NCBI RefSeq assembly: GCF_000613125.1
Contig: NZ_HG964497.1
Location: forward strand, 1,498,011 to 1,562,010
DNA length: 64,000 bases
Source of the DNA: Bacillus sp. EB01
GTDB taxonomy: Bacteria > Bacillota > Bacilli > Bacillales > Cytobacillaceae
Direction: 5' to 3'
Both the position numbers and the translations under genes were made by a program. A model generated the notes under the pieces. The model searched no databases. It was not told where the DNA came from and worked only from the letters and a program-made list of their open reading frames with translations. Below, in pieces: positions 12,731 through 19,993 of the stretch (its first letter is position 1; each line of letters begins with the position of its first letter).

Positions 12731-12797
12731 GACTCTATGATTTCCGCTCCGATAAGGTAATCCTGAGAAAAAACGAGTGAGAATTGTATAGAAAAGG

Positions 12798-13015
12798 ATT
12801 TACTAGACGGAACTAGGGCAAGCGGAGTGAGATTCGTCGAGAAAAAGGCATTTACTAGACGGAACTAGGACCGGCTGAGTGAGATTTGTCGAGAAAATGG
12901 ATTTACTAGACGGAACTAGGGCCGGCTGAGTGAGATTCGTCGAGTAAATGGATTTACTAGACGGAACTAAGGGCGGCTGAGTGAGATTCGTCGAGTAAAA
13001 GGCATTTACTAGACC
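12798..13015. repeat. 51/52-bp tandem repeat array
   Basis: Units starting ATTTACTAGACGGAACTA begin at 12798, 12850, 12901, 12952 and 13004 (the last truncated), i.e. every 51-52 bp. Each continues with GGNCGGCTGAGTGAGATTCG and TCGAGNAAANGG. The sequence is unrelated to the array at 1457 but has the same period. It lies between the terminators of two convergent genes, so it is probably not transcribed at high level. Confidence 0.93.
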
Positions 13016-18480: not shown

Positions 18481-18599
18481 AGAAGGTTTCAAAAGGATGA
18501 ATTCCTATGTTGATACACCACTCTATTCACCTACCTGCCCTTTAACAAATTAAAGACTTGGGGTTAAAACCCTAGTTAAGACTAGTTCATTCAACAAAA

Positions 18600-18681
18600 T
18601 TACTCTATAAAGCAATAAAAATTAGTTTATAAAGTAATTTATATTGCATTCAAACGTAATTTAATTTACTATATAAAGTAA
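18600..18681 (+). promoter_or_regulatory. Three phased operator-like repeats before the HTH-F1beta gene
   Basis: TTACTCTATAAAGCAA (18600-18615), TTAGTTTATAAAGTAA (18622-18637) and TTACTATATAAAGTAA (18666-18681) share TTANTNTATAAAGNAA, a near-palindrome (TTACT/AGTAA). Their starts are 22 and 44 bp apart, which keeps them on one face of the helix. The last one overlaps the ribosome site region of the next gene. Autoregulation by that gene's helix-turn-helix is inferred. Confidence 0.6.
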
Positions 18682-18694
18682 AGGAGGGTAGTCT

Positions 18695-19747
18695 ATGGAA
18701 AAACTGGATGACTTAAGGTTAAATGTAAGCTTATTACGAAGAAAAGTACCGAATCTAACAAGTGCAGCCAGGCAAGTTGGCTTGCGGCCTGCTACCGTTT
18801 CGAACCTGTGCACCGGAAAAATACCTGTTGGCAGAGCTGAGGTTCGAACGTTGGTTGCACTAGCATCATTGGCAGATTGCAGTTTGGATGATCTGATTAT
18901 CAGAGGGGAGAAAATCGAAATGATCGAAACCAAAATTAAAACGTTGGATTTATTTGCTCCTTTAGCAAAAGGAGGAACTGTCGGTTTGGTTGCACGTCCT
19001 GGAATGGGGCAGCTCGTGGTATTGTCAGAGTTACTTTTTCGATTGAAAAATGAAGGATTTAAGACAATTCTGTTAATGCCTGAAGGTGAACACCAGGGAG
19101 TTGATGAACTCACTGAAAATGTAGAAATCATTACGAACACCATCGAAGAAACCTATGAGACCATTGCAGGTATCGGCGTGGACAAAGATATTATGTTCGT
19201 TGCCGACAGATCCCATGTGATAACAGGAAGTATCCAGCAACTCCAGGAGAAGCTCCAAGGAATCGGAATCCATTCTGTCACAACTTTCCTGCTTGATTTA
19301 ACAGGCGAGGTTGTTGATGAAGATTTACCTTATGGGCCACTGGAAACCTTATGGCAATTCGACGCTGATCTTGCAGCACGGCACCGCTATCCAGCCGTCA
19401 ATCCTCTAAGTTCAACCTCCTCTGTGCTCGAAGGCGCCCATCTAGATCAGGAACACTTCACAATTCAACAAAAAGCACTAAAGCTTCTCCGCCGCTACCG
19501 GGAACTCCGTTCTTTAGTGAATGTTCGCGGGATTGAACGGATTCCGGCATCTGAATTACAAACCTATCAAAGAGGCGAGCGGCTTGAAGCCTATTTAACC
19601 CAGCCATTTTATGTTGCCGAACCCTTTACCAAACAAGCAGGCCTGTCAGTAACCCTTCATGAAACTTTGAACGATATAAAAGAAATTTTGAACGGTGCGG
19701 CAGATTCTAAAAATGTGTCAGAACTAGAATTTATCGGGAAACTGTAA
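18695..19747 (+). CDS. Helix-turn-helix fused to a degenerate F1-ATPase beta-like domain
   Basis: Residues 1-70 form a small HTH (SAARQVGLRPATVSNLCTGK with a following helix). Residues about 84-350 align with the nucleotide-binding and C-terminal domains of the ATP synthase beta subunit: IKTLDLFAPLAKGGTVGL for IKVVDLLAPYAKGGKIGL, RYPAVNPLSSTSSVL for IYPAVDPLDSTSRIL, LLRRYREL for LQRYKEL, and LTQPFYVAEPFT for LSQPFHVAEVFT. In the P-loop the lysine is Gln106 and the next Thr is Leu107, so nucleotide hydrolysis is unlikely; Glu132 (equivalent of catalytic Glu188) and a Walker B Asp171 remain. The N-terminal beta-barrel and DELSEED motif are missing. It is far from any atp operon. It is probably a DNA-binding regulator with a pseudo-ATPase sensor domain; that role is inference. 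AAAGGAGGG precedes ATG 18695. Confidence 0.82.
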   Translation: MEKLDDLRLNVSLLRRKVPNLTSAARQVGLRPATVSNLCTGKIPVGRAEVRTLVALASLADCSLDDLIIRGEKIEMIETKIKTLDLFAPLAKGGTVGLVARPGMGQLVVLSELLFRLKNEGFKTILLMPEGEHQGVDELTENVEIITNTIEETYETIAGIGVDKDIMFVADRSHVITGSIQQLQEKLQGIGIHSVTTFLLDLTGEVVDEDLPYGPLETLWQFDADLAARHRYPAVNPLSSTSSVLEGAHLDQEHFTIQQKALKLLRRYRELRSLVNVRGIERIPASELQTYQRGERLEAYLTQPFYVAEPFTKQAGLSVTLHETLNDIKEILNGAADSKNVSELEFIGKL

Positions 19748-19754
19748 AAGAGCA

Positions 19755-19806
19755 AACAGGGACGGATCTCCTCTGCCAGTTGGCTAACGAGACCGTCCCC
19801 TTTTTC
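19755..19806 (+). terminator. GGGACGG-type hairpin terminator
   Basis: ACAGGGACGG...CTC pairs with GAGACCGTCCCC, followed by TTTTT. It belongs to the dispersed GGGACGGTTC hairpin family also seen at 28481, 41230, 49512 and 59948. Confidence 0.85.
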
Positions 19807-19890: not shown

Positions 19891-19993
19891 AATGAAGGAT
19901 GATTACGCATGATTTTTTGTCTGTTCCCGCCTTCATAAGCCGAATGAAGGATGGTTACGCACGATTTTTGGGTCTGTTCCAGTCTTCATAAGC
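19891..19993. repeat. Two-unit 52-bp tandem repeat
   Basis: AATGAAGGATGRTTACGCAY followed by a GATTTTT run, GTCTGTTCC and CTTCATAAGC occurs at 19891-19940 and again from 19943, 52 bp later. The two units differ at several positions. The period equals that of the arrays at 1457 and 12798 although the sequence differs. The rest of 19807-20107 shows only the ribosome site of the next gene. Confidence 0.85.

Follow-up and report, generated by a model that had tools for sequence, protein, structure and literature searches.

A putative DNA-binding regulator with a catalytically dead F1-ATPase beta-like body and four phased operators in Bacillus sp. EB01

A helix-turn-helix joined to a degenerate F1-beta body

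The window, the whole 64,000-nucleotide stretch of Bacillus sp. EB01 DNA analysed here, carries at 18695..19747 of its forward strand (the strand also of the operators and gene parts located below) a gene for a 350-residue protein, hereafter the regulator, in which a helix-turn-helix (HTH) is joined to a catalytically dead body resembling the beta subunit of F1-ATPase (F1-beta). A preliminary description of this DNA had proposed that architecture, and its open reading frame, product length and motifs all hold. The Cro/C1-type HTH spans residues 8-69 (18716..18901; HTH_26, 23.6 bits against a cut-off of 22), and nucleotide-binding and C-terminal domains of F1-beta type fill residues 72-350 (18908..19744). 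Judging by sequence, a ribosome-binding site AGGAGGG lies at 18682..18688, immediately 3' of the last of four putative operators, while the gene is followed by a probable intrinsic terminator picked out by eye (GGGACGG...CCGTCCCC TTTTT, 19759..19805) and so looks monocistronic in the window; a terminator consensus scan found none, the loop at 19759..19805 exceeding the limit of that scan.

The homology to F1-beta is far beyond chance. Against NCBIfam the best model is atpD (TIGR01039; E 3.6e-33), at 115.1 bits and so under its curated cut-off of 462.85, F1-beta chains in the PDB match from E 1.1e-29, and an hhalign comparison of the regulator family (47 sequences) with 12 F1-beta sequences gave a probability of 99.9 and E 3.7e-31 over residues 72-350. 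The profile search by which the preliminary description proposed to check the homology came out divided: atpD and the C-terminal Pfam profile PF22919 match (the latter at 27.7 bits, over a cut-off of 24.7), whereas PF00006 stops just short of its own (29.1 versus 29.5 bits). In comparison with the regulator, the beta subunit of the same genome scores 154 bits and a paralogue there with an alpha-type P-loop 16. Comparison of the predicted structure with known folds was also proposed, and it returned the F1-beta fold over residues 66-347, with no fold from outside the rotary ATPases among the best 50 rows in each of two comparisons. With a mean pLDDT of 67 the AlphaFold model is of middling quality, and it falls below 50 in the old catalytic pocket (residues 99-105, 205-250 and 304-317), so that retention of this pocket is argued from the sequence.

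The beta-barrel had been described as missing, and the alignment confirms its absence, the F1-beta match beginning only at column 147 of 490 with the HTH in the place of what precedes it; about 50 further residues have been lost from within the nucleotide-binding domain. The DELSEED part had likewise been reported missing. Here the motif itself is indeed lost, but in hhalign the segment still aligns at residues ~280-287.

The former catalytic site and the retained pocket

The former P-loop reads VARPGMGQLV (residues 99-108; 18989..19018), with Gln106 at the position of the Walker-A Lys and Leu107 at that of the following Thr, just as first described. Among 130 full-length rows (48-100% identical to the window sequence, which is included twice) the Lys position is Gln in all 130, leaving no Walker A pattern GxxxxGK[ST], and the Thr position is Leu in 116. 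The Gly before the former Lys is retained in 130/130, and the first Gly-Gly positions of the loop are occupied instead by Ala and Arg (129/130 rows each). Also diverged are the positions aligned with the catalytic Glu-Arg pair E190 and R191, where the alignment may be off by one, and with R256. The Walker-B Asp171 is kept in 127/130 rows, and residues 232 (Tyr or Phe, 130/130), 305 (Phe, 124/130) and 311 (Phe or Tyr, 124/130) remain aromatic, these being the positions that we take to contact adenine in F1-beta. The mean share of the commonest residue is 0.85 in the former P-loop stretch and 0.81 in the former switch/adenine region, as compared with 0.54 for residues 113-193 and 0.70 for residues 246-350. 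With phosphate handling gone and the ring pocket retained, these patterns suggest that the body binds a ligand rather than catalyses a reaction.

One candidate for such a ligand is an ordinary nucleotide of the cell, acting as energy signal or second messenger (ADP, AMP, c-di-AMP, ppGpp or similar) and seated in the old adenine site, by which hydrolases would be coupled to starvation. The retained aromatics and Walker-B Asp speak for it, but the phosphate site has been replaced (Lys to Gln, Thr to Leu, with E190, R191 and R256 lost), so that a triphosphate would be poorly held, and on balance we regard this identity as unlikely.

A phased operator array at the inferred promoter

Upstream of the gene lie four putative operators, which follow TTAC-N8-GTAA apart from a single departure in 3/4 of them and whose starts at 18600, 18622, 18644 and 18666 are spaced by exactly 22 bp: operator 1, TTACTCTATAAAGCAA (18600..18615; matrix score 17.9, read on the reverse strand at locus L005), operator 2, TTAGTTTATAAAGTAA (18622..18637), 22 bp past operator 1, operator 3, TTGCATTCAAACGTAA (18644..18659), and operator 4, TTACTATATAAAGTAA (18666..18681). 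Tandem Repeats Finder reports the same array as a period of 22 in 3.9 copies (18597-18681). Three repeats had been noted originally; the 22-bp phase stands, and the count is raised to four consecutive sites. The first six bases of operator 3 (TTGCAT, 18644-18649) are the inferred -35 element, an overlap judged by eye, and operator 4 holds the inferred -10 element TACTAT at 18667-18672, which gives a 17-bp spacer. TAnnnT is seen by eye at the -10 position in many relatives, and the inferred promoter (7/12 matches by our own count) is absent from the output of a promoter consensus scan.

A spacing of 22 bp is about two turns of the helix and would set all four operators on one face of the DNA, where the HTH, presumably as a dimer, would bind the palindromes, cover both the -35 and the -10 and shut off its own promoter. 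Since XRE proteins commonly regulate themselves through palindromes, the array by itself singles out no mechanism, and activation instead of repression is conceivable. Four equally phased sites also call for cooperativity, and beta subunits form rings with alpha, both of which would suit a ligand-free body that merely joins protomers for the cooperative filling of the operators. Such a scaffold is nonetheless very unlikely in our estimation, given that the barrel holding the F1 crown together is gone and that the highest conservation of the body falls at the former P-loop and the switch/adenine region (shares of 0.85 and 0.81), which points to the pocket.

Operators across genomes

A matrix of the operators was derived from relatives and permits spacings of 21-23. 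All 58 upstream regions (from 59 loci, one being too short) score 10.0-61.6, while none of 870 letter shuffles exceeds 3.9, although these are the same regions on which the matrix was trained, which makes a genome-wide pattern search the better test; in many of the 58 not all four sites are good. In that search 51 of 397 genomes of the order match, and of the 27 new loci retrieved 19 have a regulator adjoining the match and 8 are without any relative. These 8 and 7 further candidate loci are taken as chance because their site interiors, by eye, depart from the consensus. Another 13 pattern rows, chosen by eye, lie at a regulator in 10 cases and once each at an M3 peptidase, at an HTH-less copy of the body and at none of these.

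A promoter-pair pattern, applied to 78 regulator genomes, matched in 45, and its reversed-pattern controls matched in 0. All but five rows are directly upstream of the genome's own regulator. The five are the M3 peptidases of G616 and G656, the alpha/beta-hydrolase of G618, an FmdA-regulator operon in G689, and G764, in which the gene concerned is again the regulator itself behind a longer leader; at L254 and L268 (G764 and G613) the array lies ~346 bp upstream of the regulator start, which makes the leader longer than in the other cases.

In the own genome a scan with two mismatches allowed returned 43 matches, 6 of them in the regulator's own array, against 128 for a reversed control, and matches beyond the array are accordingly at chance level. 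No second operator array was found in this genome. Its atp genes (485-490 kb) were considered as targets and rejected, the nearest operator match being at 544.6 kb. This bears on the possibility that ATP-synthase assembly is what the body reads, by competing for alpha or gamma and thereby reporting free F1 subunits. Descent from beta is what recommends it (atpD as best NCBIfam model; 154 versus 16 bits in the own-genome comparison), but with the DELSEED motif lost, the catalytic residues diverged and no operator match at the own genome's atp genes we hold it to be highly improbable. The preliminary reading, that a dead beta has become the body of a DNA-binding regulator which has phased operators, is upheld, whereas its further suggestion that nucleotide level or the state of ATP synthase is read gains no such support. 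The retained adenine-site aromatics do fit a nucleotide-like ligand, but the operator sites lie instead upstream of the regulator gene and, in certain other genomes, upstream of hydrolases.

Partner hydrolases

Three hydrolase families recur with the operators or the gene. An FmdA-type amidase stands in an operon with the regulator (same strand, within about 60 bp) in six cases (L038, L040, L076, G458, G689 and G569) and behind unlinked sites in two genomes, with four sites spaced 21, 28 and 22 in G591 and one strong and one weak site in G628. An alpha/beta-hydrolase is in an operon with the regulator in six more (G033, G601, G627, G577, G459 and G517) and behind unlinked sites in one genome (G618), while an oligoendopeptidase follows operator sites in four genomes (G023, G039, G616 and G656), its NCBIfam name M3_not_pepF having been tested for the first three and the G656 protein being 69% identical to that of G039. 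The hydrolase-regulator operons of G689 and G033 are each preceded by two sites; there, as at G616 and G618, no more than two sites are clear, and at G569 no site scored with the operator matrix. Pfam assignments cover 7/12 operon partners (L038, L255, L264, L238, L154, L208 and L235) as well as the G618 hydrolase; the remaining partners were assigned by similarity (L040 and L076, 86% to L038; G577, 84%, and G627, 92%, to G601), and the alpha/beta-hydrolase of G517 is only 33-37% identical to those of G618, G601, G577 and G459.

Where each flank extends to at least 1 kb, 18/124 regulators have a same-strand open reading frame within about 60 bp, and 12 of these 18 neighbours, which were called mechanically and are perhaps in part spurious, are an FmdA or an alpha/beta-hydrolase. 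In a quick tree of 132 regulators, for which unlinked targets were sought in part of the genomes, at least 19 have a hydrolase partner and the partners need at least 16 changes (FmdA 7, alpha/beta-hydrolase 5, M3 4). The preliminary description had suggested a survey of co-occurring genes, and these 19 of 132 are its yield; there is no fixed neighbourhood. L283 and L292 (G458 and G632) have the same flanking genes with and without FmdA behind the regulator, a difference that by eye is gain or loss of the FmdA partner alone. At L085 an amidase-signature gene 103 bp downstream of the regulator may belong among the partners.

Only particular members of these enzyme families are tied in. Sites were found at 2/20 unlinked FmdA genes examined (out of 32, from 35 regulator-positive genomes with FmdA minus 3 operonic), so that general control of FmdA is rejected, as is that of M3 enzymes, with arrays at only 2/29 M3 loci from 17 regulator genomes; 18/20 FmdA and 27/29 M3 genes are thus without sites. 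The two site-bearing FmdA are also the most like the operonic ones (69-70%, against 47-61% for the 18 site-less). FmdA occurs in 35/86 regulator genomes versus 44/305 others (Fisher p 5e-7, kinship not corrected for), the 35 being hand-counted from differing genome draws (394 and 391) and 2/86 holding broken remnants of the regulator. In the own genome a search for FmdA at E 1e-40 came back empty, and the single M3 relative reaching E 1e-30 is without an array.

The repeated joining of one switch to unrelated hydrolases of amides, esters or peptides suggests that a substrate of such enzymes is the ligand or accompanies it. The products of FmdA and M3 enzymes (ammonia, carboxylic acids, or peptides and amino acids) suit scavenging and to that extent the energy signal considered above. 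The recurrent linkage to three unrelated hydrolase families also agrees with a different proposal, the boldest of those considered, namely that the body is a target mimic and decoy, copying F1-beta in order to catch a compound that attacks F1-ATPase. On binding, the operators would be released, so that further decoy is made along with, in genomes that have one, a hydrolase able to destroy the compound. Consistent with this, the autoregulated gene has no tight operon partner in 106/124 cases, and natural products that bind F1 exist (ammocidin and aurovertin, by the titles of PDB entries 7md2 and 1cow). One genome, G465, further encodes besides a full-length regulator an HTH-less copy of the body (L222 3086-3928; G465:C5:138421-139227) that reads ARSGMGQ where the P-loop was and stands behind four operator sites of its own, reminiscent of TipAS, the HTH-less drug-binding form of TipA; for a decoy it would be an extra sponge. 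If true, a dead copy of F1-beta joined to an HTH would sense an ATP-synthase-directed compound, raise its own level as a sponge and, in several lineages, switch on a recruited hydrolase (amidase, esterase-type or peptidase) that degrades the compound. We nevertheless think this quite unlikely: no resistance model is among the NCBIfam matches, PADLOC gave no match, no compound is known to induce the regulator, and its main rival is a simple nucleotide signal. The aurovertin site, moreover, is lost, with bovine Q411 and R412 aligned by eye to Glu298 (Glu in 130/130) and Ala299 (Ala in 126/130). Aurovertin is rejected as the ligand on the loss of these two main contacts and on the natural insensitivity of Bacillus F1 to it that is described in excerpts of PMC9615146.

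Proposed mode of action

Taken together, we consider the protein to be probably, though with appreciable room for doubt, a one-component regulator that controls its own gene, most likely by repression, and whose dead F1-beta body responds to a ligand. The domain make-up, the loss of the catalytic Lys, the conserved operators and their linkage to regulator and hydrolase genes are read directly from the sequences; repression, dimers, ligand binding and de-repression are what we infer from them. The body, an F1-beta that has shed its barrel and phosphate-handling residues while retaining the aromatic adenine site, would most likely bind a small ligand, whether nucleotide-like or another molecule fitting the old beta cleft, whereupon the HTH would release the operators. 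The output would be more regulator and in some genomes also a hydrolase (FmdA-type amidase, alpha/beta-hydrolase or M3 oligoendopeptidase). The energy-signal and decoy proposals are narrower versions of this ligand-responsive repressor that name the ligand.

Relation to known systems

On sequence grounds we file the protein as a one-component regulator with a co-opted enzyme body and not as a catalytic F1-beta (atpD, TIGR01039; PF00006 plus the C-terminal domain). It is homologous to F1-beta, has the same predicted fold over residues 66-347 and retains the adenine-site aromatics and Walker-B Asp; unlike F1-beta it lacks the barrel, the DELSEED motif and the Walker-A Lys (an invariant Gln instead), and it has an HTH replacing the N-terminal domain as well as palindromic operators of its own. 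The HTH of TipA is of MerR type and its body is TipAS, whereas the regulator combines HTH_26 with F1-beta domains, none of the 6 Pfam families listed for it being a MerR-type HTH or TipAS-type. TipA-class proteins are minimal autoregulated resistance systems according to excerpts of PMC7762955. The regulator resembles TipA in being a single, putatively autoregulated gene with a possible HTH-less ligand-binding form, and here too ligand could be bound and mopped up. The MocR/GabR regulators, as excerpts of PMC4944035 and PMC6917764 present them, pair an HTH with an enzyme homologue (of aminotransferase fold) in one protein, and the regulator is built on the same plan; however, their winged HTH and body are both unrelated to its own, and GabR binds PLP whereas the regulator has lost its catalytic Lys. 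XRE regulators with palindromic autoregulatory sites feature in excerpts of PMC12565409, and with these Cro/C1 proteins the regulator shares the HTH type, palindromes at its inferred own promoter and putative autoregulation, but not the body domain or the four-fold 22-bp array.

Among the matches listed in an open-access literature search, whose scope left subscription papers mostly outside, there was no description of an HTH-F1-beta fusion regulator, in agreement with the preliminary view that the architecture is undescribed, and nothing on point for the link to partner enzymes or for sensors that mimic a target. Enzymes are known as sensor bodies of regulators, but no match listed in that search describes a rotary-ATPase subunit in such a role. 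The sharp operator code and the small recurring set of partners make the signal directly testable, and the identity of the ligand would reveal a new route of reading nucleotides or a means of detecting attack on ATP synthase.

Distribution and mobility

A scan of one genome per species found 60 loci, 59 with essentially the whole protein and with best segments 64-93% identical, in Bacillus-type genera and a few Paenibacillus-type genera. The regulator is present in 17/61 relatives (the own genome counted) and in 86/394 genomes of the order, of which 84 have it at full length and two have broken remnants only, a patchiness that would be odd for a core energy signal. Full-length copies were found in 3 of 398 genomes within the phylum, and the regulator in 3/154 of another class. 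Identity reaches 87% to copies in Lysinibacillus and Pseudogracilibacillus, as against 70-73% in two congeners, which suggests horizontal transfer of the gene. Immediate neighbours vary between genera and no neighbour cluster occurs in more than 19 of 60 clustered loci, so a conserved gene neighbourhood is rejected. In some lineages the gene seems to be decaying: G657:C43:76203-76649 and G672:C11:51205-51612 are C-terminal-only matches, each with an in-frame stop.

Mobile-element origins were considered and set aside, since at 80% coverage none of 50,697 phage records matched and a single one of 72,556 plasmid records did (Paenibacillus NZ_CP045296, 58.5% identity), as was a role as anti-phage defence protein (0 PADLOC families at E 0.01). 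Nineteen phage records (H21-H39) match 30-48% of the query, in the F1-beta part only; two are annotated atpD and two ATP synthase F1 beta, and all 19 are probably host DNA. The window also holds a tandem repeat of a 51-bp unit in 4.7 copies (12775-13014) and, between the regulator and a downstream decarboxylase-like gene named by eye, two copies of a 52-bp unit (19891-19993).
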